Source: a virus. Taken from it: DNA of 64,000 nucleotides. The notes beneath the pieces are model-generated. The model was not told the origin of the DNA, made no database searches, and saw only the letters and a list, made by a program, of their open reading frames with translations. The DNA lies in IMG/VR virus record IMGVR_UViG_3300031715_000003, positions 1-64,000 of that record; one strand, written 5' to 3'. Shown here piece by piece: positions 3 to 33,725 of this stretch (position 1 is its first letter; each line of letters starts with the position of its first letter). A program made the translations under genes and the position numbers.

Positions 3-185
3 TCCAACTCGAATGGACAGATAGCAACCGAGGATGCCGATACGCTGGCGGCGTTTCAAGCGGCGCTCAAGAGCACGCAGTACTTGGCGCTGACATTCGG
101 CGGCGGCTGTTACTACGGGCATGGTGTCAACGTGAGCGGAGGGACCGCGGAGTTCACGCTTCTGACTTACGGATTATTTAAATGA
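3..185 (+). CDS. 3' end of an unidentified protein (partial)
   Basis: An open frame enters from the left edge and runs 60 residues to a TGA at 183-185. It is glycine- and threonine-rich and ends in EFTLLTYGLFK. The stop overlaps the ATG of the next gene (ATGA), so the two belong to one operon. A tail or virion-associated protein is plausible from position only. I do not recognise a family. Confidence 0.6.
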   Translation, partial: SNSNGQIATEDADTLAAFQAALKSTQYLALTFGGGCYYGHGVNVSGGTAEFTLLTYGLFK

Positions 186-3100
186 TGAAACTAGCCACTC
201 TTCTGCTGATTCTCGTCGCGCCCTCGTGGGCGACGAACTACTACATCAACGGCAGCACCGGAAACGACGGTAATCCTGGAACGCTCTCGCTTCCGTGGCA
301 GACCATAACTAGGGTCAACTCTGGAACGTACTCGCCTGGTGATAGCATCAATTTCTCAGGTGGCCAGACCTTTTCAGGTAATGCAGTATTCACTACGGGA
401 AGTTGCGGAACTCAGTCTAACCCCATCACGATCACGTCCTACGGATCTGGTTACGCCACGATTAACGGCGGCACTGGTAGCGCAATTGAAATCTACGAGT
501 GCGGTGGATACACAGTCAATAACCTCATCACGGTCGGATCTGGAAACACTACAAACACCGGCGTGGGCGTATTCGCATATCTGGACTTGGCCAACACTAC
601 TCTATACGGTATCACTTTCGGGCCAAATCTTACATCCAGCGGATTCAATTACGGCTTTGGTATCGGCTCATTCAATGGAGCTAGTGGGTATACCAATGTT
701 CTCATCCAAGGTGTCAATGCCTTCGGAAATAATGAGGGCCTTGGGATATATGGAGACAACAGTCCGACAAACGCCTATTTCTGTCACACCAACCTAAACG
801 TTATAAACTCCACGTTCCACGACAATCCAGGGACATCCGGAGGCGGTAACGGAATGTTTATGTCCTCCGTAAATGGTGGCAGCATTAAATATAGCTTGGC
901 ATACAATAACGCCTCTAACGCCAACGGAGGAGTCGGTTTCGAAATCTACGAAGCTCAGAATATAGTACTAGAATATAACGAGTCACACCACAATCACACC
1001 AATGGTGTCAATGATGGCGACGGATTTGACTGCGATGGAGGGTCCGTCAACTGCACGATGCAGTATAACTATTCGCACGACAATGACGGGGCTGGATTCT
1101 TGGACTACGCTTATGGAGGGGGGCCGAACACGACCGGCACGACTATCCGTTACAACGTTTCCCAAAACGATGGTCGCAAGAATGGAAATTCGTGCGTCAG
1201 GGTTGGTAATGGCAGCACAGCGGGCACTGGCCTGAGTGGGTCAGAGATTTATAATAATACATGCTACATCTCTGGAATAGCAAGCCAGTCGGTGGATGGC
1301 ATGGATATTCCATCTGGCAATAGTACCACAAATGTGCACTTTCGTAACAATATCATTGCGGTATCCGCTGGAACCGGAGGAACAGTTAATTTAGTAAATG
1401 TTCCCGGGTCTCACACTGGCCTGTTGTTTCAGAACAATGACTATTGGGCATACTCTGGAGCCACCAATTACAACTGGGGTGGAACCAACTACACCACTTT
1501 CGCGGCGTGGCAGACGGCTTCGGGCCAGGAGAAGATCGGCGGTACCAATGTCGGTCTCACGGAAGACCCCGGATTGGTCTCGCCCGGCAACGGACAAACG
1601 CTGGGACTGCTCGGCAACTCACAGCTTACGGCTTATCGCCTCGCCTCGGATTCGACCATTACATTCGCAGGTCAGAATATGCAGTCGGCCTTTAGCGTGA
1701 ATCCTGGAAATCAAGATTTCTGGGGATATGGCATCCCTTATATGGGAGGCTACAGCGTAGGGGCCAGTCAAGTGCCGTTCACGACTCCCGCAGCGCGAGC
1801 ATTCACGGTTTGCCCGAGCGGCTGCAATTACGCTGATCCAAACAGCGCTGAGTCCGCGCTCACCTCCCTCGCTCCGAACTGGCCGATCCTAGACGCTCCC
1901 TACATCTTCGAATGGACGGCTGGCGATACGTTCACGCAGACGGTGAACCTGCTCAGTCCGAACAATGGCCAGGGATACTTTACCTGCACAGAGACGAGCG
2001 GGAGCGCCGCATTGTCATGCCCGGTTATCCTAGATCCCCAGACGGCCGTCAAGGTAGTGACGGGAATGACAGTGGCGGGTCTAGGCGTGCCGACAGGCGT
2101 AACGGTTTCGTCTATCACCGGAACCGGCCCCTACACCGTTACCCTCACGAGTGCGCCGACGCTCGCGACTGCATATTGCAGTTCGGGAGCGTCACCATGC
2201 CAGACCTGCACTTGGAACGGATCGTCAGTCGTTTGTACCCAAGTCGGCGTGTTTTACTTCGGATCTGCGCAATGGGTAGTGCATCGATCAAGCGCGGAGT
2301 GCGCGCCCCCAGGCCAGCGGGCTGGCTCACAGAACACGACTTACGGACCCAGCGCAACAATCACGCCGGTAGCGGGCATGGCCCTCCTCATCACGCCGTC
2401 CGGGAGGAGCCCAGCTATTCAGGCTAACCCGACGAACGCTCCTGGCGCTCCGGGAGTAAGTTATCACCGCTTTGAATGCCTCGAACTTGCGGAGAGTACG
2501 GTAACAAACCAAGAGGTCTTTCAGGTCGTCCAACTTGGCAATCAACCTCCCGGTGGACAAGCATTGGTCGCACAGCAGGCCTCGGCGATGGCGCACCACA
2601 ATGCATTCAACCACATCTATTCTCATGCATATGTTGACCCGGCGAACAGTAACTTTGCCCATGCGTTCATAACGGACTCAGCCTATCTGGAGATAACAAA
2701 TAGTACCCTGATGGCCTTCCACACATCAGAGGAGGCCCACGGATTTGCTACTGACAATTCGATCGGACCATTCTATCTCAGAAACAACGAATTTGAATCT
2801 ACCGGCATAGGTACCATCTTTGGCGGGAATGCCCCAAATATGGGTGGGGCTAAGGTTACGGGCGCTCAGTTTATTGGGAACTACTATTACCGGCCATGGC
2901 TGTGGCGAGTCACCAGCGGCACGGCGACGCCCGCAAATACTTTCTCCCCATCGACGTGCCTGTACGATTCAAACGGAGGAGAGTCCTATTACGACGCTAC
3001 CAGCAACCACACGTACCTTTGTGTAGCGGGAACTTGGACTGACCAAGGAGCCGGTACTCCCGCGCAGCCCTATTGCAATACGGGCACGTGCACGGCAGGG

Positions 3101-4528
3101 GGCGCACCCAATCTAGTATGCACCACCACAGCGATGAGCACCGCGGTGACCTGCAACGACACGACTGGGGTATCGCCTGGGATGCTGATGTATGGCCCAG
3201 GACCAGCAACTCTCGGCACGGGTGCGTCGGTCTCGACGGTCAATAGCGGTACGTCACTCACGCTAAACGTTAATGCGAACTACACGGCGACCGGTACCGC
3301 CCAGTTCATTCTATCGAGCGGGTTCGGAGGGTCTTTTCCATATTGTGTCGATGGATGCAGCTTTGATAAAAACCAGGAAGAGTTCAAAGAAGTTTTCGGA
3401 GCGTTGAGCGATGGAAACTGGTGGCAGAATGGATGGGCGCCGGGGCTAGCCAGTCAAAGCGGGGAGTGCCTGCTGCAAAACAAAGTGGACTCCAATCTGG
3501 ACGACGTGGTGTCGTATGTCACCTATACTAACAATCGGTGTGATTCCACCCCACAGGGATTGGCGATCGGGCAAGCCGGAATTAATCCATACGTCCATGA
3601 GAACTCCAATTCCGTGTTGATAAACAATCTGTTTACCAACATCGGCCTACCGCAGATAACGCTGCCAGTTTTGGGAATCGGATCTGCCACGATGACATAC
3701 GTGGGCAACTTTGACCGCACCGTGTACCAGAACAATACGATGCTGCTGAACAATTCCCAATTTGGAATGCTCGGCAATGGTGTATTAACGTGCATGGGCA
3801 ACACCTATGGCTTCTTGGCATGGTCCAGCAACGTCGCCAACATCGGCTATGGAAGCTGGTACGACCAGTGTGATTCACTGGGATTCGGTAACAGTTCACC
3901 AGGATTTAACGTGCTAGCGAACGACTACGCCACTTCGGATCTAGGGCTCGGCACCATCATTGTAACGACTCAGTCCGCCTGCGAACCGGGCGCCTATCCG
4001 CCACCGTCTGGGAACTGCGGCCAGATAGGATGGGCGAACGGTGGCTGCAACGGATGCACCTACCCGACATCGCTATCCACGACGTTCCAATCGTACCCGG
4101 CCAATCTTGCCGTTGCGTCTGCGTATCAGGGGACGGGTTATTTGGGCTACGATCCCGGAGCCGATATCAACGTGGTGACGTGGAGCACGAATGGCAATTC
4201 GGGCTGTCCCGGCAGTACTCCATGCGGCGCACCGAATGCGTATTTGGATTTCAGGATAAAAGATCCGCTGGTCATGCCCACATCGGTCACGTGGTATTCA
4301 TATCGCGCGCTGGACACTGGGGCCTGCACCGTAACGATCGCAACACAGCCGCCGGCACCGGGCAGCACTACGCTGACGAGTGGGATCGTTTACGGGCCTA
4401 CCAGTGACGGCGGCGGCAATCCAGAACGGAGCCTGACCGTCACCGGCCTAACGGCCAAAACAGAATATTGGTACACGTTCGTCTGCACTGGAAGTGTGTA
4501 CCGAAGAGGGAATTTCAGCACTCCATGA
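182..4528 (+). CDS. secreted tandem right-handed beta-helix protein (tail spike or adhesin-like)
   Basis: The 1448-residue product starts with a Sec signal peptide (MMKLATLLLILVAPSWA, cleavage after residue 17). Residues about 19-520 begin with the YYINGSTGNDGNPGT signature of DUF1565/pectate-lyase-like parallel beta helices and continue as N-, G- and S-rich coils. A second helix-like block starts near residue 535 and continues to about 1370. The last 80 residues look like an FnIII or immunoglobulin-like domain ending in KTEYWYTFVCTG. Such proteins bind or cleave surface polysaccharide. No catalytic residues could be assigned. A signal peptide is unusual for a phage tail spike, so it could instead be exported by the infected host or lysogen. 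The start is the first ATG of an ATGATG pair overlapping the upstream stop. Confidence 0.75.
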   Translation: MMKLATLLLILVAPSWATNYYINGSTGNDGNPGTLSLPWQTITRVNSGTYSPGDSINFSGGQTFSGNAVFTTGSCGTQSNPITITSYGSGYATINGGTGSAIEIYECGGYTVNNLITVGSGNTTNTGVGVFAYLDLANTTLYGITFGPNLTSSGFNYGFGIGSFNGASGYTNVLIQGVNAFGNNEGLGIYGDNSPTNAYFCHTNLNVINSTFHDNPGTSGGGNGMFMSSVNGGSIKYSLAYNNASNANGGVGFEIYEAQNIVLEYNESHHNHTNGVNDGDGFDCDGGSVNCTMQYNYSHDNDGAGFLDYAYGGGPNTTGTTIRYNVSQNDGRKNGNSCVRVGNGSTAGTGLSGSEIYNNTCYISGIASQSVDGMDIPSGNSTTNVHFRNNIIAVSAGTGGTVNLVNVPGSHTGLLFQNNDYWAYSGATNYNWGGTNYTTFAAWQTASGQEKIGGTNVGLTEDPGLVSPGNGQTLGLLGNSQLTAYRLASDSTITFAGQNMQSAFSVNPGNQDFWGYGIPYMGGYSVGASQVPFTTPAARAFTVCPSGCNYADPNSAESALTSLAPNWPILDAPYIFEWTAGDTFTQTVNLLSPNNGQGYFTCTETSGSAALSCPVILDPQTAVKVVTGMTVAGLGVPTGVTVSSITGTGPYTVTLTSAPTLATAYCSSGASPCQTCTWNGSSVVCTQVGVFYFGSAQWVVHRSSAECAPPGQRAGSQNTTYGPSATITPVAGMALLITPSGRSPAIQANPTNAPGAPGVSYHRFECLELAESTVTNQEVFQVVQLGNQPPGGQALVAQQASAMAHHNAFNHIYSHAYVDPANSNFAHAFITDSAYLEITNSTLMAFHTSEEAHGFATDNSIGPFYLRNNEFESTGIGTIFGGNAPNMGGAKVTGAQFIGNYYYRPWLWRVTSGTATPANTFSPSTCLYDSNGGESYYDATSNHTYLCVAGTWTDQGAGTPAQPYCNTGTCTAGGAPNLVCTTTAMSTAVTCNDTTGVSPGMLMYGPGPATLGTGASVSTVNSGTSLTLNVNANYTATGTAQFILSSGFGGSFPYCVDGCSFDKNQEEFKEVFGALSDGNWWQNGWAPGLASQSGECLLQNKVDSNLDDVVSYVTYTNNRCDSTPQGLAIGQAGINPYVHENSNSVLINNLFTNIGLPQITLPVLGIGSATMTYVGNFDRTVYQNNTMLLNNSQFGMLGNGVLTCMGNTYGFLAWSSNVANIGYGSWYDQCDSLGFGNSSPGFNVLANDYATSDLGLGTIIVTTQSACEPGAYPPPSGNCGQIGWANGGCNGCTYPTSLSTTFQSYPANLAVASAYQGTGYLGYDPGADINVVTWSTNGNSGCPGSTPCGAPNAYLDFRIKDPLVMPTSVTWYSYRALDTGACTVTIATQPPAPGSTTLTSGIVYGPTSDGGGNPERSLTVTGLTAKTEYWYTFVCTGSVYRRGNFSTP

Positions 4529-4536
4529 GGGGCTAA

Positions 4537-4692
4537 ATGTGGAAAGAATTTGATCTTTGGATCGGCGGCCATAACGGCGTTCACCCGGTGTGGATGTGGC
4601 TGCCGACGATTGGGGAAGTGCTCTTTTTTGTGGCAGGCTGCGCCGTTGGAGTTGGCGCGCTGTGGCTCGCGAGGAAACTGTGGCACCGTTGA
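4537..4692 (+). CDS. small single-pass membrane protein
   Basis: A 51-residue frame between the two large beta-helix genes begins MWKEFDLWIGG and contains one hydrophobic helix (residues about 22-46) followed by basic RKLWHR. A GAGGGG sequence lies just upstream of the ATG. Its 3' end overlaps the GTG start of the next gene by 13 bases. Function unknown; the size and topology fit phage membrane or lysis accessory proteins, which is only a suggestion. Confidence 0.55.
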   Translation: MWKEFDLWIGGHNGVHPVWMWLPTIGEVLFFVAGCAVGVGALWLARKLWHR

Positions 4693-7664
4693 GGCTGTCG
4701 ATCGTCGCGGTCTGGACGCTGCTTGCGGCCTCGCTCTGCGCCCAGACGATGCAATCCGGGTCCGGAGCGCCCGGCGCTGGCGTAGGCGCTAATGGAGACC
4801 TCTATAACAGAACGGATACGCACTGGATCTATGGCCCCAAGGCCGGCGGGGCGTGGCCCTCAACCTACTCGGTCATCCTCGGGCGCGGCTGCACGACGGC
4901 GTTTCATATCGATTGGTACTGTACAGGGCGAGGAGTGGGTGGAGTTGATCCCAACATGATCCAGAGTCCTGTTGAGCCTAATCCGCTGTTCGGCGTTGAC
5001 GCCGGGCTGACTGGCAGCACACCGGATGGCACGGTTCACACGACGGCCCAAGTGTTGTCGAAGTACACAACGCCTGACGCCTTTTATGCAGCCGTAGGCT
5101 ATACCGGAATAACACATTACTGGGCCATCACCACCACAGGCAATGATGGCACATGCTCTCGTCAGACGACGGTTGCTCTGGCAGTTGCGAATGCGTGCGC
5201 GACATTTTCTGGAATAGGCGGCGCTCCGGCCGCGGGCGATGCCGTGATCATGCGGGCCGGAACTTATGCTACGAACTGGTCCCCTGGTACCAACGGAACG
5301 GCCGGCAATCCAATTTACGTTATCAATTACCCCGGAGAACACGCCATCATAGATACAGGTCCTCTGGGCGGCACAAACGGTATTTACGTGCCGTTTCTCT
5401 CGTATTACACGATCGACGGACTTGAGATGGTTAACTCCTCTGGCAGCTACGATGGGTCTGGCTGGGGCATCACCATCGGCTACGGTAGCGGAATGGTGAT
5501 TCGCAATTGCTGGATTCACGATTTTGGAGACGACATAATCTCCGGGGACGCCACTATCAACGTTCTGGTGGAAAGGAATGTAGGTAACAACGGAGGCACC
5601 GGGGACGGCCACGATTTCTACCTTGGATCTCGCTTCACGCCCTCGACTGGGGGGATAGTTCAAGACAACGTGATCTACAACGGCGACTCCGCCCCGATGC
5701 AATTCAATGGACGCTTCCCAGGTCTGCTCTTTACCAGGAACATAATCCACGACGGCCAGGGTCATGGGTTGGCTTTTTATAACGGCAGCACCGGCGCGAC
5801 AATCTCGAACAACATTATTTTCCAGGTCGAAAACGACGATATGTTGTGGCTGATATACGACGGCGGATGCAGCGCCATGCCGCCCACTGGTGTGTGTCCC
5901 TACGGATTTGCAAACGACATCATCGTGAACAACACGTTCGTGACGACCTCGGCCAGCGGAGGAGGTCCGGTAGGATACGTCAATGCGTGCAATACAGGTG
6001 GAATGTGTACGCCCACCACCGGCTTGGGGGGAGGGCCGCCATGGAGTTTCGGCAGCAACACATATTCGAACAATGTCATCGTAACCCTGACCGGAGCCTC
6101 AGCACCATTAAACTTTCAAGCAGGCACCATTACGGCAGATGTCAACAGCACCTACAGCAACGACATCTTTAACGGATTCGGAACGTTAGTCGTTGGAACT
6201 CTCAGCACCAACTATACCTGCGCCAGTCTGGCAGGCGTGGCCACGGTGTCCAACTGCGGTACCGCCGACCCGATGCTTATTTCCGCTAGCAATGGAGAGG
6301 CTACCAATAATTTCGACCTACATCTAAGTACAGGATCTCCTGGCATTGGGGCAGGCACCGCTACCAACGCTCCCGCCATTGATATCCAGTGGAACGCCAG
6401 GAACAATCCGCCATCAATCGGGGCCTACGAGTACGGTGGCACATCAGTCCTCACCATCGTATCGCCAACTTCTCTAAGTAATGCGCAGGTGGGGGTCGCC
6501 TATGGTCCGGTGCCTTTCATGGCGACTGGCGGAACAGCCATGGGCTATGTGTGGTCGGTGACATCCTCCTGTCTCCCGAGCGCTCTAAGTTTCTCCGCAG
6601 GGGGAATCCTCAGCGGAACTCCAGGTGGCGGCACGGCAGGGATGTATTCCTGCACCTACACCGTGACCGATTCTGGAAGCAACGTGGCGCACATCACGCT
6701 CAACCTCACGGTGGTTACGACTGCCCCGACGCTGACGAGCCTGTCCCCCAGCTCCACTACGGCCGGCGGTCCGACGTTCACCCTTACCGTGAACGGCAGT
6801 GGGTTCCTCAGCGGCGCTACGGCGTTCTGGAACAGTACGTCTCTAACGACGATGTTCGTGAATAGCGGACAGGTTACCGCGACCGTACCCTCAACTCTGA
6901 TCGCTTCGGCAGGCACCGCTGCCATCACGGCCACGAATCCAGGGAGCGCAGCATCAACCCCTCTCACGTTCACCATCAATCCCGCTCCTCCGCCCGGGTC
7001 TGGTGCCATGATGTTGGGGGGCGCCAAGATACTAAAGGGTACGCTCGAGGGCACCATCATCACGGCTGGAGCCATCACAAACCAACAGACGCCGACGACG
7101 TGCTTGGTTTCCGGGACAACCTGCACGTTTACTATATCGGCGACGACCGCGGGCAACACACTCGTCGTGCTGTTGGACTATCTGGGCGGGACCGTCACTC
7201 CGCCCGGTGGATGGACCCACATTCCCTCTGCTCTTTGCACGGGCACCCAGACCGTGGACGCCTACTACCAGCGAAACACCACCGGGGGGACCACGAGCAT
7301 AGTGTTTACTCAGAGTTCTAGCCTTTGGTACGCGGGAACCATCTACGAGCTACACTCTACAGCGGGCGCGAACTTCCCTCAATTGGACACCGCATCGTGC
7401 AACAACTCTTCGTCCAGCCTGACATCATTCACGGGACCTAATTTGACGCTTGCCGGCTCGGGTGAGGCGATCATCTCTGAAGGTCAGGCGAACAACGGCG
7501 GGGGGATGACTGGCGTAACCAATGCCGGATACAACGTAGTTCCGACGAGCGGAAATGGTGTGGCGACGGCGTATATCCTCAACACCGGGAACGGAACGGG
7601 TGTCACATGGAACTCGATGTCCGCCTCTACCAGGTGGGCCATCAATATGCTGGCGTTCAAATAA
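4680..7664 (+). CDS. secreted beta-helix protein with immunoglobulin-like repeats
   Basis: I choose the GTG at 4680, behind GAGGAAACT, because it gives a clean Sec signal peptide (MAPLRLSIVAVWTLLAASLCAQ). The frame is open back to an ATG at 4590, but that would bury the signal. The 994-residue product has a parallel beta-helix region (about 90-590 of the mature protein), then a putative He_PIG domain (SPTSLSNAQVGVAYG onward), an IPT/TIG-like repeat (LTSLSPSSTTAGGPTFTLTV) and a C-terminal glycine/serine/threonine-rich beta domain. These repeats are typical of Acidobacteria surface proteins. A role in receptor binding or polysaccharide degradation is inferred from fold and from the neighbouring beta-helix gene. 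Confidence 0.75.
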   Translation: MAPLRLSIVAVWTLLAASLCAQTMQSGSGAPGAGVGANGDLYNRTDTHWIYGPKAGGAWPSTYSVILGRGCTTAFHIDWYCTGRGVGGVDPNMIQSPVEPNPLFGVDAGLTGSTPDGTVHTTAQVLSKYTTPDAFYAAVGYTGITHYWAITTTGNDGTCSRQTTVALAVANACATFSGIGGAPAAGDAVIMRAGTYATNWSPGTNGTAGNPIYVINYPGEHAIIDTGPLGGTNGIYVPFLSYYTIDGLEMVNSSGSYDGSGWGITIGYGSGMVIRNCWIHDFGDDIISGDATINVLVERNVGNNGGTGDGHDFYLGSRFTPSTGGIVQDNVIYNGDSAPMQFNGRFPGLLFTRNIIHDGQGHGLAFYNGSTGATISNNIIFQVENDDMLWLIYDGGCSAMPPTGVCPYGFANDIIVNNTFVTTSASGGGPVGYVNACNTGGMCTPTTGLGGGPPWSFGSNTYSNNVIVTLTGASAPLNFQAGTITADVNSTYSNDIFNGFGTLVVGTLSTNYTCASLAGVATVSNCGTADPMLISASNGEATNNFDLHLSTGSPGIGAGTATNAPAIDIQWNARNNPPSIGAYEYGGTSVLTIVSPTSLSNAQVGVAYGPVPFMATGGTAMGYVWSVTSSCLPSALSFSAGGILSGTPGGGTAGMYSCTYTVTDSGSNVAHITLNLTVVTTAPTLTSLSPSSTTAGGPTFTLTVNGSGFLSGATAFWNSTSLTTMFVNSGQVTATVPSTLIASAGTAAITATNPGSAASTPLTFTINPAPPPGSGAMMLGGAKILKGTLEGTIITAGAITNQQTPTTCLVSGTTCTFTISATTAGNTLVVLLDYLGGTVTPPGGWTHIPSALCTGTQTVDAYYQRNTTGGTTSIVFTQSSSLWYAGTIYELHSTAGANFPQLDTASCNNSSSSLTSFTGPNLTLAGSGEAIISEGQANNGGGMTGVTNAGYNVVPTSGNGVATAYILNTGNGTGVTWNSMSASTRWAINMLAFK

Positions 7665-13574: not shown

Positions 13575-13750
13575 CCCCCATGCTCCTCTCGATGGCACGC
13601 GCCAGCGAATCCTGTGCACAGAACCGCAAGATTGGCGATCCGGTCGTCTCGCCCTTTAGAGCGGTGCTGAATGTGGTGGCCCTCCCCGCATCCCTGGAGG
13701 TCGCGCCCGCACTTTGCGCAGCGTGGGGAATTATATACTACCGTATACAT
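13571..13750 (-). CDS. N-terminally shortened HNH endonuclease
   Basis: The 59-residue frame reads C-A-K-C-G near residue 11, then GEGHHIQHRSKGRDDRIANL, AVLC and CHREEHG. That is the zinc CxxC, the HH of the beta-beta-alpha-metal fold and the final CH..H of phage HNH nucleases. The usual 30-50 residues before the CxxC are missing, and the frame begins inside the 3' end of tnpB. This looks like a gene cut by arrival of the TnpB element and now starting at an ATG supplied by it. A short functional nuclease is possible but less likely. Confidence 0.55.
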   Translation of the reverse strand: MYTVVYNSPRCAKCGRDLQGCGEGHHIQHRSKGRDDRIANLAVLCTGFAGACHREEHGG

Positions 13751-14841
13751 TCTGAAGAACCTTTCAGTCCCGCAAGGCTCTTCCCGAGCCTAAGAACATT
13801 GATCGATGCATTATGATCGCGATCCAAGTTCGTCCCGCATTCGCAAATATGGCGCCGCTCCTTCAGCGTCTTCCGCACATCTGCACCGCAGTTTGAACAG
13901 CGGATCGATGTGCCCCTGGAGTTAACTGGTATGGCCCATCGCCCGGCACTTTCAGCCTTGTACGATATTTGCCAAATCAGTTCTCCCCATGCGGCATCGA
14001 GGATGGATTTGGCAAGTTTGCCGTGCACCATCCTAGCGATGTTCAGTTTTTCAAAAGCGATCAGGTCGTAGTTGGACACCAACCACTTGCTGACATGATG
14101 GATAAAATTGCGTCTGGCGTCGGCCGCACGCTGGTGCGCACGACGTAATGCCTCTTTGGCGCGGACACGGTTGTTTGACCGCTTTTTCTTTAGCGCTAGA
14201 CGCCGATTTGCCGCCGCGATCTTAGCCTCATGCTTGCGCGTCCAGCGCGGATTATCTATCGAGCGTCCATCGGAAAGAGTCACGAAATTGATTAATCCGA
14301 CATCAATACCGACGGCGCTTGACACCACGACCTTTTCTGGTGCGGCCCCGATATCGCAGCACAGGCTGATTTGCCACCGTTCACCGCGGCGCTTAACTGT
14401 GGCCGTGCGCGGTGTGCCGATAATCAACTGGCTCGACTTGAATTTGAACCAGCCCAGATCTGGAATCCTAATTTTGTTGTCAAGTATCCGCACCTTGCCG
14501 AACAGGAATGAATTGTAACGATGTCTCGAACGGAATCGTGGAAACCCCGGATTTTCACCGCGCTTGCAGCGACGGAAGAAATTCTTAAAGGCTCGCTCTA
14601 GCCGACGTAGGGGCTCCCGCTGAATGTCCACTGCAATCCTGGCGAACTGTGAATCTTTGCGTAGTTCCGTAAGTTCGGCCTGTTGGTCGTAAAGTCCGAT
14701 GTGCTTTCGCTCTAGCTTCCATGCTTCCTTGCGTTCCTGGAGTGCTGCATTGTAGGTCTCCGCGCTATCGCGAAGGATGTCCTCGAAAGCAGCAAGTTGA
14801 GCTTGGTTCGGTCGGAGGCGAAGTGTGTACGTCCGGAACAT
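13738..14841 (-). CDS. tnpB: TnpB, IS200/IS605-family RNA-guided nuclease
   Basis: The 367-residue product (ATG at 14841; a longer frame would overlap the upstream gene) has an OrfB N-terminal helix-turn-helix (YTLRLRPNQAQL), and a RuvC domain with Asp in GIDVGLINF, Glu in IAFEKLNIARM and Asp in LDRDHNAS, bracketing a zinc ribbon (CSNCGADV...CECG). All three catalytic acids are present. TnpB uses an RNA from the 3' end of its own element to cut donor-joint DNA. No TnpA is present. The stop at 13738 lies beside a hairpin-prone GC-rich end that could hold the guide RNA scaffold. Confidence 0.9.
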   Translation of the reverse strand: MFRTYTLRLRPNQAQLAAFEDILRDSAETYNAALQERKEAWKLERKHIGLYDQQAELTELRKDSQFARIAVDIQREPLRRLERAFKNFFRRCKRGENPGFPRFRSRHRYNSFLFGKVRILDNKIRIPDLGWFKFKSSQLIIGTPRTATVKRRGERWQISLCCDIGAAPEKVVVSSAVGIDVGLINFVTLSDGRSIDNPRWTRKHEAKIAAANRRLALKKKRSNNRVRAKEALRRAHQRAADARRNFIHHVSKWLVSNYDLIAFEKLNIARMVHGKLAKSILDAAWGELIWQISYKAESAGRWAIPVNSRGTSIRCSNCGADVRKTLKERRHICECGTNLDRDHNASINVLRLGKSLAGLKGSSECIR

Positions 14842-14845
14842 GAAA

Positions 14846-15208
14846 CTAATCTCTACGCTCCTGGGTCGATTGGTAGCGGGCATAATGCTCCTCCGCTAAT
14901 TGCTTCATGTTGACCACGTATCGTTTCTCAAATGCTTTTCGTCCGGCGTCGTATTCGCGATGGTAGGCGCGTTCCAGGGGAACGCACGAGGAATCTGGTC
15001 CTTTGCTTCCCATCCCGTTGTTTTGCGTATGAGCGGGATCAATTATCGCTCGCCTCCAAAGCCCACTCCCGGAAACTATCCAAGTATCCCCCTTTATCCC
15101 GGATACGACGCATGGTTGCTCGCAGCACCATTGTCGATAACCGACGTCTCTCATCGGCCCGCGACGAGGTTTCGCGCGCTTCTGCGGAATCCGGCTGCGG
15201 ACCTTCAT
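14846..15208 (-). CDS. DUF968-type HNH nuclease
   Basis: A 120-residue protein with a basic N-terminus, WCCEQPCVVSG, an H in IIDPAHTQNNGMGSKGPDS, CVPLERAYHREYD and a helical tail. This order of Cys, His, GMGSKGPD and HREYD is typical of the phage DUF968/YbcO-like HNH-fold nucleases of replication and recombination modules. Its ATG overlaps the preceding stop (ATGA). Its stop is only 4 bases before the tnpB start. Confidence 0.65.
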   Translation of the reverse strand: MKVRSRIPQKRAKPRRGPMRDVGYRQWCCEQPCVVSGIKGDTWIVSGSGLWRRAIIDPAHTQNNGMGSKGPDSSCVPLERAYHREYDAGRKAFEKRYVVNMKQLAEEHYARYQSTQERRD

Positions 15209-16125: not shown

Positions 16126-16401
16126 TCAGTCGCACGCTTCTATCTCGAATAGCCTGGGAGGATGGTTTCGAAACTCTGGCTTGCTTCGAAAACTCCGATG
16201 GCCTCCCATAGCCAGCATCCGGCGGTGCTGGCGCATGTAATCCTCCAAGGTGACTTGGCGCAGCACGCGCACTGGAATCCCGTCTATGTGCAGAACATCT
16301 CCTACTTGCGGTAGCCGGTTCCAGCACTCTAGGATGATCGTGCCGCCAAGAAGACGCGCGTCTTCAATCCATCCCTTGTCGTCGCAGGTTTCTGATCTCA
16401 T
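16126..16401 (-). CDS. unknown small protein downstream of DnaB
   Basis: 91 residues, ATGA overlap with the dnaB stop. The middle (WNRLPQVGDVLHIDGIPVRVLRQV) looks like a small beta barrel. The C-terminus is basic. Translational coupling suggests a replication-related role, but no family was recognised. Confidence 0.5.
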   Translation of the reverse strand: MRSETCDDKGWIEDARLLGGTIILECWNRLPQVGDVLHIDGIPVRVLRQVTLEDYMRQHRRMLAMGGHRSFRSKPEFRNHPPRLFEIEACD

Positions 16402-17765
16402 TCTCCAATGTCCTCCGCGCGATTCTCAAACCTTGTGAATTGTCCCAGGAAGCGCAAGGGGACAACGCCCGTGGGTCCGTTCCGCTGTTTCGCCACGATC
16501 AGGTCTGCCAGCCCCTTCAGATCCTCCCGGTCGCGTTTATACAGTTCCTCGCGGAAGATGAACAGCACGGTGTCGGCGTCGGCTTCTATTTTGCCAGAAT
16601 CTAGCAAATCGCTCAGCATTGGCCGTTTGTCGCCCGGACGCTTTTCGTTCGCCCGGCTCAACTGCGAGAGGAGGATGATGGGGATGCCCAACTCCATCGC
16701 GAGCCACTTTGTCTGGGTCGTTATGCGGCCAACTTCAATGTTACGATTTTCCGATTTCTCTTTAGACGCCAGTAGTTGAAGGTAATCGATCCCCACCAGC
16801 CCGATTTGCTTCCGCATCTTGCGGGCTACCCGTTGAATCTCCGGCACCCCGATGCCGCTCTTGTCGCATATCCACAGCGGAGCATTCGCGAGCCTATCGA
16901 GAGCTTCCTGTAGCCGCCTGCGGTCCTCTTGGTTCAGGTAGCCGCCGCGGAACTTGTGTTGATCAACGCGCGCCGCCGCGCACACCATCCTGGCCAACAG
17001 GCTGGCACCCGACATCTCAAGGGAGAACACCAGCGCTCCAGTGCCGGCCAGCACCACGTTGGCCACAATGTTCATCAAAAGACTAGACTTTCCTTGTGAT
17101 GGCCTGGCGGCCAAAATTATCAACTCTTCGGGCCGGAAGCCTCCTCCCATCATTTCGTCCAGCTTGCGGTACTTCGTCGCCAGCGTTTCCTGCCGCTGGC
17201 TTGGATCCAGGAACGAAGAGATGCCGCCCGGGTACTGCTCTACGATCTCCATGGGGCTGCGGGCGAGGATTTCGTGCGCCGGCCTGATCTCCTGTAGTTC
17301 TGTTTCGGCGGCTCTGGCGATCTCGGACGCTTCCGTGTTCCCTTCGAGGGCTGCGAGGAAGGCTTTCTTTGCCGAGAGCGCTATAGCCCGCAGATTCGCT
17401 TTCTCCAGCACAATGCGGACGTAGCCCGGCAGGTTGGTGATGTCGGGGAGTTCGGCCGTGATGTCGGCCAGGTAGAGCAAGCCCCCTATGGATTCGAGAT
17501 GGCCGCGCCGCACCAATTCTTCCACCACCATGATGCGGTCCGGGGATTCCCCTCGCTCATGCAGCGCCTGCATCGAGGCAAAGATGCGGCGATGCGGTTC
17601 ATTGCTGAAAGCGTGCTCCCCCAGGGACTCGATTTCGTCCCAACGTGAGCCGTTGAGGAGAACGGTCCCCAGGACTAGCCGTTCTGTTTCAGGACTGGCG
17701 GGGAGCCCGGTTTGGAGCGCGACGGCTCCAGGGTCGAATTGTGGAACAGCGCGGTTGCGTGGCAG
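16398..17765 (-). CDS. dnaB: replicative DNA helicase DnaB
   Basis: The first ATG (17573) would give 391 residues and cut off a conserved part. The frame is open upstream through ETERLVLGTVLLNGSRWDEI and EHAFSNEPHRRIFASM, the standard DnaB N-terminal domain, back to a CTG at 17765 that follows TAGGAGG. That gives 455 residues, the normal family length. No ATG, GTG or TTG is available in that 64-codon stretch, so a CTG start is the best reading. Walker A is ARPSQGKSS (about 221), Walker B LVGIDYLQLL (about 323). Two motif copies lie in the N-terminal part. It would load as a hexamer at the phage origin. Confidence 0.88.
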   Translation of the reverse strand: MPRNRAVPQFDPGAVALQTGLPASPETERLVLGTVLLNGSRWDEIESLGEHAFSNEPHRRIFASMQALHERGESPDRIMVVEELVRRGHLESIGGLLYLADITAELPDITNLPGYVRIVLEKANLRAIALSAKKAFLAALEGNTEASEIARAAETELQEIRPAHEILARSPMEIVEQYPGGISSFLDPSQRQETLATKYRKLDEMMGGGFRPEELIILAARPSQGKSSLLMNIVANVVLAGTGALVFSLEMSGASLLARMVCAAARVDQHKFRGGYLNQEDRRRLQEALDRLANAPLWICDKSGIGVPEIQRVARKMRKQIGLVGIDYLQLLASKEKSENRNIEVGRITTQTKWLAMELGIPIILLSQLSRANEKRPGDKRPMLSDLLDSGKIEADADTVLFIFREELYKRDREDLKGLADLIVAKQRNGPTGVVPLRFLGQFTRFENRAEDIGE

Positions 17766-17772
17766 GTGCCTC

Positions 17773-19293
17773 CTATGCGGGGAACTCGCGGACGCGGAGA
17801 TTGCTCGGAAAATCTTCTATGTGGCCGCCCTTGCTGTCACTCATGATCCACGGATCTTCTCCGTCAAAACAGTTGGAGCCGCCCTGTTTCATGAAAAAGC
17901 TGGTACCTGCGGTGCGGCATTGATCGCGCACGGCCTCGGCCCATTCCCAATGGAAAGGGCGAGCGCCGGGCCCGCTCTCCCCTCCTACGATTACTTGCGA
18001 AATTCCGCGCAGGTCCAATTCGCCGATGTCCTCCAATAGCGGCTCAATCGAAAGGAATCGGATGGCGGCTGGGGTCTCCCGAAGTACATCAATGCGATCC
18101 TTGCGCGCTTGATCCTCCACGGAGCACCCCGCCCAGCAATTTACGAGCGGCCATTCTATCGGCGCGTCCATATTGCCTTGACGTCCCCGTGCGATATTCC
18201 TAACCTGCGTCGCAGAGACTCCAAAATGATGGGCCAGGGCTTCGCCAGTCTCTCCTCGGGAATGCCTGCGCCTGATCTCGGATACGTCACTCTCGGTTAG
18301 TTTCGAATAGCGGCGATGGTTTCCGTGGCGTTTACTGTCCTCCCAGTTATCGCCTTGAGTACCCCAGCGCAAATTGGCGATGTGGTTATTGGTAGCGTTG
18401 CCGTCCCTATGGCAACCCTGCTCCTCGGCGACGGCAGGCCGATCAAATGCAGTTAGAACCAATCGATGAACCAGTTCTCTATACTGAACGCCATCCTTGT
18501 AAAGCATAACCCTCTGATGGCCCTGATCGCCCTCGTCGGGCGACATTCGTACCAACTTACCAGCAAATCGTGGTTCGTGCCCGACGCGCCGGTGATAGCA
18601 AGCGTTTTGCTTACATTGCTTGCTGCAGTATGATTTAGTTGCGATTCCATCGACTGGCTTACCGCAATATAAACATTCGGAACTGCCATGAGAACTAAGC
18701 ACAAATCCAAGGTTCGAAATGAAATATCCAGGATAGGATTCGATTGGCCTAATCTCTTCCGTTACATGCGTCATTTCCTGAGCGACAGATACGACATCCA
18801 TCTGCTTGGCGATTCTAAAAGGCGTGCGGACCTCTGAGCAATATGTCAGCATCCTACCGGGCCGCTTTGTTAGCACTTGAAACGTGTGCTGAGGACATAG
18901 CGCCATAACCGCGAAAATCCGGTCTATCGCTTCATCTGGCAGCGCTTCGTGGAATAGATCCGACATCGAATTGACGAAGATGCGGCAGGGCTTGCACCAG
19001 TGAAGCGGTTCCATGAGCTTGGATTCGATCAGTTCTACTTTGCCTGTCCACTGAGGATGACCGTTGGCGATGCGGACAAAGCCGTTGAACTTTCCAGCCT
19101 TCTGGATCTTCCCAAATAAATCACCATCTCCTGGGGGTTCGTAATCTGGGGCTTGTGAAAAGCGCGCTGCGATGCGTTCTGCATAACAGTGAACGCAGCC
19201 GGGAGAAACTCGGCTACAACCACGGGTCGGGTTCCACGTTTTACCTTCCGACCCATCTTCCCCGCGCGTCCATTCGATGCTAGTCTTTCCCAT
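17773..19293 (-). CDS. DUF5131 (Gp37/Gp68) protein with in-frame HNH insertion
   Basis: Residues 1-170 and 373-506 match the DUF5131 family: IEWT...TWNPTRGC, the three-cysteine cluster C26/C33/C36 ending in HCYAE, LTKRPGRML, then SVEDQARKD, IRFLSIEPLLEDIG and GGESGPGARP. The family resembles radical-SAM enzymes and is common in phages; the reaction is not known to me. Between them sits about 195 residues of a homing endonuclease: NUMOD4-like IESYPGYFISNLG (about 185), a CLYCGK...YCSKQC zinc site, HNH_3 motif CHRDGNATNNHIANLRW (294-310) and a helix-turn-helix (about 331-371). No stop interrupts it, and intein end motifs are absent. GGGGAGAACGA before the ATG is the ribosome site. Confidence 0.8.
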   Translation of the reverse strand: MGKTSIEWTRGEDGSEGKTWNPTRGCSRVSPGCVHCYAERIAARFSQAPDYEPPGDGDLFGKIQKAGKFNGFVRIANGHPQWTGKVELIESKLMEPLHWCKPCRIFVNSMSDLFHEALPDEAIDRIFAVMALCPQHTFQVLTKRPGRMLTYCSEVRTPFRIAKQMDVVSVAQEMTHVTEEIRPIESYPGYFISNLGFVLSSHGSSECLYCGKPVDGIATKSYCSKQCKQNACYHRRVGHEPRFAGKLVRMSPDEGDQGHQRVMLYKDGVQYRELVHRLVLTAFDRPAVAEEQGCHRDGNATNNHIANLRWGTQGDNWEDSKRHGNHRRYSKLTESDVSEIRRRHSRGETGEALAHHFGVSATQVRNIARGRQGNMDAPIEWPLVNCWAGCSVEDQARKDRIDVLRETPAAIRFLSIEPLLEDIGELDLRGISQVIVGGESGPGARPFHWEWAEAVRDQCRTAGTSFFMKQGGSNCFDGEDPWIMSDSKGGHIEDFPSNLRVREFPA

Positions 19294-32791: not shown

Positions 32792-33132
32792 CGCGCGCGC
32801 TCCCGTGGCTTCCAGTGCACGTCATAGAACCAGAGCGACATCAGATAGGCGCAAGCAGCTTCCTTATGCTCATGTTGCGGCTGAAACGATCGCGCAATGG
32901 CTTGAACGTGGTTGAACGCCTTCACTGTGTCGATCCCTACTTTAGGCGTGAACCTGACATCCTCTACTCCAAAGAAAAACATATCACTAAAGAAGCCATT
33001 CCAGAGCGTACGGCCGTGCTTGAACTCCTCTGGGATGGCTTCGAAGGCAGGCATGAGCGAAAACACATCCGCTGGCCCGAAGGCCATATCCAGCCCGGTT
33101 ACTTCGGTGGGAGCAGTGAAATCTGTCGTCAC
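32788..33132 (-). CDS. small unknown protein
   Basis: 114 residues from a GTG (GTGA overlap). Aromatic-rich (LWNGFFSDMFFFGVEDVRF), helical C-terminus. Family not recognised. Confidence 0.45.
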   Translation of the reverse strand: MTTDFTAPTEVTGLDMAFGPADVFSLMPAFEAIPEEFKHGRTLWNGFFSDMFFFGVEDVRFTPKVGIDTVKAFNHVQAIARSFQPQHEHKEAACAYLMSLWFYDVHWKPRERAR

Positions 33133-33647
33133 TTCGCAACCTCCTGCGGGAGTTCGCTTTCAGCCGATTCCGTTCTCCCCGTCAGCCAGAATTTATTGCC
33201 GTCTACAATTGCTTGGCAGATGATGCGGAGTCGGTCGCGAGCGGATGCCGGGCGTTCTTCCTCGAATGGCCACGGATATCTCATAGGGCTCCATCCTTCG
33301 AAGATCGCCTCGACGCGCGTTCGGCTTGCTTTGTCTAGTGGTAGACGCGGAAGATAGATGTTGTCCTCAATGTAGAGGTATCCATTGGTGCGGAAATTGA
33401 GGTCAATTGCGTCCTCCCGAATGGCTTGGGCAACGAGAAATGCCCCGAGCGCGCAGACGTGGCACTCCACGCCCGACAATGCGAGCTGCTGAAGGTCGAT
33501 AGGGCCATCGCCCTCCCATTGCTCAACCCGCACGTAACTTATTTCCGTGAGTTCGAGTTTTACCGGCCCCTTGTAGTCGTGGTCCAGGTATCGCAGCACG
33601 TCGGCTGCAAGCATTTCGATGGTCAGTGGTTGTTGTTCTTCGGACAT
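33129..33647 (-). CDS. unknown protein of 172 residues
   Basis: Start is the ATG at 33647, 12 bases after the AATAGGAGG of repeat cassette A. The product is acidic alpha/beta (VLRYLDHDYKGPVKLELTEI, GVECHVCALGAFLVAQAIRE) and ends ESELPQEVAK, encoded by the motif. No family recognised. Confidence 0.5.
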   Translation of the reverse strand: MSEEQQPLTIEMLAADVLRYLDHDYKGPVKLELTEISYVRVEQWEGDGPIDLQQLALSGVECHVCALGAFLVAQAIREDAIDLNFRTNGYLYIEDNIYLPRLPLDKASRTRVEAIFEGWSPMRYPWPFEEERPASARDRLRIICQAIVDGNKFWLTGRTESAESELPQEVAK

Positions 33648-33656
33648 CAGTTGTTT

Positions 33657-33725
33657 GAGCCTCCTATTGCTCACCCGAGGGGAGCACGGTCGCGGGTGTG
33701 CTCCCCTTCGGCGCGCATCAGGAAA
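33657..33725 (-). repeat. gene-junction cassette A
   Basis: In minus-strand order: GTTTCCTGATGCGC, a 30-base hairpin AGGGGAGCAC/GTGCTCCCCT (33679-33708), then TGAGCAATAGGAGGCTC containing the ribosome site of the next gene. The same frame of sequence recurs at B, C and D, with different hairpins. It would supply a transcript-processing or termination hairpin plus a strong ribosome site. Confidence 0.75.

Follow-up and report, generated by a model that had tools for sequence, protein, structure and literature searches.

The replicative helicase gene dnaB of this tailed phage is probably translated from a CTG codon at position 17765, and we put the probability of this reading, which is drawn from the sequence and its comparison with relatives, at about 0.76. 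The window analyzed here comprises bases 1-64000 of a 94,224-bp IMG/VR virus record, and the phage has a P22-like portal, a terminase and a major head protein. A portal-protein scan of IMG/VR returned no close phage relatives. The features that bear on the dnaB start are as follows.

16398..17765, minus strand: dnaB replicative helicase, 455 aa if started at CTG (PF00772 83 bits, PF03796 281 bits, PHROG 19 317 bits)
17403..17705, minus strand: DnaB N-terminal domain, residues 21-121 (PF00772 profile positions 2-103 of 103)
16422..17183, minus strand: DnaB RecA-like C-terminal ATPase domain, residues 195-448 (PF03796 profile positions 2-255 of 255)
17763..17765, minus strand: proposed CTG start codon of dnaB, the sole near-cognate codon ahead of the conserved region that has a strong Shine-Dalgarno (SD) sequence; it corresponds to the GTG start in the closest relative, L114
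17769..17774, minus strand: Shine-Dalgarno AGGAGG read from the sequence, 3 nt before the CTG (-10.2 kcal/mol to the anti-SD)
17773..17775, minus strand: TAG that ends the upstream DUF5131 gene and overlaps the SD; the end of the protein matches the end of its homologue
17571..17573, minus strand: first ATG, GTG or TTG in frame, not accepted as the main start (no SD, +1.9 kcal/mol; the product would miss profile positions 2-46 of the N-terminal domain)
17773..19293, minus strand: upstream DUF5131 gene with an in-frame HNH endonuclease insert (PF07505 and PHROG 2045 in two stretches, with HNH PHROGs between them)

On the minus strand, the dnaB frame stays open from 17816 down to its stop at 16398, with an in-frame TAG (17819-17817) immediately upstream. 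Its first ATG, GTG or TTG is the ATG at 17573, and the CTG (17765-17763) lies exactly 64 codons earlier. No ATG, GTG or TTG occurs in this frame between the stop at 17819 and ATG 17573, and from 17839 to 17700 there is no canonical start in any of the frames. An earlier note on this DNA had stated that the 64 codons before the first ATG lack such codons and encode a conserved DnaB N-terminal domain, and both statements hold. The Pfam DnaB_N profile (PF00772) scores 83.4 bits from the CTG (profile positions 2-103) as compared to 37.8 bits from ATG 17573 (47-103). The coordinates given in the note are right, with two refinements: the open frame reaches 17 codons further upstream than was described, and in the protein started at CTG the conserved domain itself begins only near residue 21. 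Both PF00772 and PF03796 (281 bits) are complete in a single frame from the CTG, and the ATPase residues, including Walker A and B, are intact and aligned with those of relatives (GKS 225-227, E250, D327, Q368, K426 and R428). When solved DnaB structures are compared with the CTG-started protein, the best match aligns from residue 22 and others from residues 3 or 9. Judged from its sequence, the stretch upstream of ATG 17573 is real coding sequence. Conservation is weak over residues 1-12, and likeness to the closest relative reaches residue 13; translation of dnaB must therefore start at or before 17729.

The protein shares its domain architecture and motifs with phage DnaB-like replicative helicases (PHROG 19; P1 Ban), at 35-38% identity. 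Unlike the window, none of those examined lacks an upstream ATG, GTG or TTG in frame. A canonical start precedes the anchor glycine in each of 140 distinct viral DnaB relatives; only four of the 140 carry a canonical start codon at exactly the offset of the CTG. We found no relative above ~46% identity over the full length of DnaB. The closest full-length relative (L114, 46% identity) has a GTG exactly at the CTG position, aligns with the window without gaps over 21 codons from the start to a shared PASPE motif, and has in common with it the pattern G-x-x-A-L-x-x-G-x-P-A-S-P-E from residue 13. The remaining relatives start mostly nearer the domain. A distant relative (L214, 33% identity) opens with ATG-Pro-Arg-Asn, where the window reads CTG-Pro-Arg-Asn; this agreement is suggestive and favours the CTG but does not amount to statistical proof. 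Alignment with other phage DnaB proteins had been proposed as a check on this start; L114 and L214 both have canonical starts at the corresponding place. One further sequence (L062), considered as a relative without a canonical start, was rejected, as its normal ATG had been shifted by an alignment gap. Two others (L200 and L073) represent one locus, where dnaB starts with TTG. In L114 itself (dnaB at 2489), the GTG directly follows an in-frame TGA, and its internal ATG at residue 21 is one at which gene callers would be inclined to cut that protein short as well.

The initiation signals point to the same codon. The CTG stands just behind TAGGAGG, as the earlier note had placed it, and AGGAGG has two bases (AG, 17774-17773) in common with the TAG stop of the upstream gene. 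From 17729 back to 17819, the one-base neighbours of ATG are AAG 17816, ATT 17813, ATC 17801, AGG 17774, AGG 17771 and CTG 17765. Among these, ATT 17813 and ATC 17801 represent weaker non-AUG alternatives in the open dnaB frame, with anti-SD pairing of -6.5 and -1.8 kcal/mol, respectively, as compared to -10.2 kcal/mol for CTG 17765. An SD as strong as or stronger than that of dnaB precedes 14 of 80 well-supported genes of this phage. AGGAGG stands at a comparable distance from only eight of the window's 2179 CTG triplets; together with the canonical starts of all 140 relatives, this makes the arrangement at dnaB more than a chance occurrence. A spacer of 3 nt is short by the standards of this phage (mode 4-7 nt; 7 of 64 genes at 2-3 nt), and mRNA structure around the start is ordinary (z = -0.20). 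Codon-usage scoring was too weak on this gene's strand to place the start. Taken together, the SD, the domain coverage and the canonical starts of two relatives point to CTG 17765, the start already put forward from the sequence. No convincing CTG start was seen in any other gene of this phage. As a separate observation, for the ORF at 33129-33674 (minus strand) the best ATG (33614) has no SD and a CTG at 33650 follows GGAGG by 9 nt, but this ORF could also use a GTG in frame at 33674.

The CTG start of dnaB is well supported; it is uncommon but belongs to a kind already known. CTG accounts for 0.024% of annotated starts in bacterial genes (PMC11497404, PMC11983097), in agreement with the rarity claimed at the outset, but precedents exist and include replication proteins. 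Expression from CUG is 0.86% of that from AUG in an E. coli reporter (PMC11497404). Mycobacteria show no enrichment of CTG as a start, even where an SD precedes it (PMC4633059), so the identity of the host matters. The nearest parallel is the rep gene of IncFIB (RepFIB), F-like plasmids, a replication gene with a CTG a few nucleotides behind GGAGG that is often misannotated at a downstream canonical codon (PMC11983097). Its CTG start (GGAGG-CTTT-CTG) is proven by N-terminal analysis and mutation, and CTC at that place kills replication (PMC11983097). In contrast to the present case, rep encodes a plasmid initiator rather than a phage helicase, its spacer is 4 nt rather than 3 nt, and its CTG is proven, while ours is read from the sequence. 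A phage ORF with a CTG start, ORF10 of Bacteroides phage phiB124-14, is known from annotation only (PMC3338817).

The main remaining doubt on the CTG start is a base error: the phage may have a canonical start here, with one wrong base in the consensus or with a minority or freshly mutated variant assembled. CTG is one base away from ATG, GTG and TTG, the homologous position holds GTG in L114 and ATG in L214, the SD spacer is one base below the common 4 nt, and the junction is known from one record only. A gapped exact pattern found no second copy of the DUF5131/dnaB junction in IMG/VR, and megablast and blastn of the region gave no match against phages. On the other hand, single frames give nearly full-length matches to the families of the portal, the major head protein and head closure, hence the assembly is not visibly error-ridden, and start codons would be a tiny target for random errors. 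Between closely related genomes, starts switch to CUG at 3.2e-5 from AUG, 2e-4 from GUG and 4e-4 from UUG (PMC5622118); we judge random consensus errors at this codon to be rarer still, which is an estimate and not a measurement. The earlier note had regarded a sequence error restoring another start as fatal to the CTG. Upstream, ATG 17844 belongs to the frame of DUF5131, and a stop follows GTG 17840; as no frame offers a canonical start from 17839 to 17700, an insertion or deletion there would reveal none. What is left is a one-base substitution, which we consider unlikely.

Initiation at another upstream non-AUG codon, for example ATT 17813 within the end of the DUF5131 gene, is improbable. 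Although the open frame contains both ATT and ATC, and the ATT has some anti-SD pairing, that pairing sits far upstream of the codon, and such a start would pass over the perfect AGGAGG beside the CTG; moreover, in L114 a stop directly before the GTG means that no protein reaches further upstream there. Even less probable is that only a shortened DnaB is made from ATG 17573 or that the gene is decaying. This ATG is the first canonical start and the one that a gene caller would report, but it would split the N-terminal domain midway, the conserved domain is still encoded in the 64 codons that would be skipped, and none of the ATPase motifs is damaged. A +1 frameshift fusing DUF5131 to DnaB, proposed earlier as a refutation, can practically be dismissed: the two frames do overlap (17816 to 17776), but DUF5131 stops at its homologous terminus, no slippery motif is evident, and in relatives dnaB stands apart as a gene with a start codon of its own.

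With dnaB starting at CTG 17765, the DUF5131 gene is its likely translationally coupled partner. The DUF5131 protein ends in RVREFPA in the window and in RVREFPR in a related record (56% identity in both halves), and it ends where its homologue ends; the TAG at 17775-17773 is therefore its natural end. From this TAG to the dnaB CTG is 7 nt, inside the range of -8 to +10 nt from an upstream stop that is taken as predictive of coupling by termination-reinitiation (PMC10666635). The HNH insert occupies about residues 153-381 of DUF5131; in L200, a related record, DUF5131 is uninterrupted and a separate HNH gene lies between DUF5131 and dnaB. Rfam gave no family between 9000 and 36500, which leaves that interval without any known class of intron or riboswitch.

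Ribosomes finishing DUF5131 at the TAG may pass to the overlapping SD, or new 30S subunits may bind it. Initiator fMet-tRNA would pair with CUG despite the first-position mismatch, and the product would be a 455-aa helicase beginning with Met. In this scheme the strong SD and coupling would offset the weak start codon, and, since few copies of a replicative helicase are required, a low output may be acceptable or even favoured. A more speculative proposal, which we find rather doubtful, is that selection maintains the CTG as a throttle. Initiation at this codon would be weak, and nothing but the strong SD and termination at the stop of DUF5131 would rescue it; helicase synthesis would in this way be tied to DUF5131 translation and kept low, comparable to the low expression proposed for IncFIB rep.

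With this case, a phage replication gene joins the small number of CTG starts that are well argued. As had been predicted, gene callers limited to ATG, GTG and TTG would truncate dnaB at ATG 17573, giving a helicase without nearly half of its N-terminal domain. This suggests systematic mining for conserved domains that extend upstream of a called start and are accompanied by an SD and an in-frame CTG. Elsewhere in the window, two very long ORFs (1448 and 1024 aa) at 182-7664 on the plus strand have no PHROG match, and an IS605-type TnpB/OrfB protein with a Cas12f1-like TNB domain is encoded at 13738-14883 (minus strand), in the phage early region.
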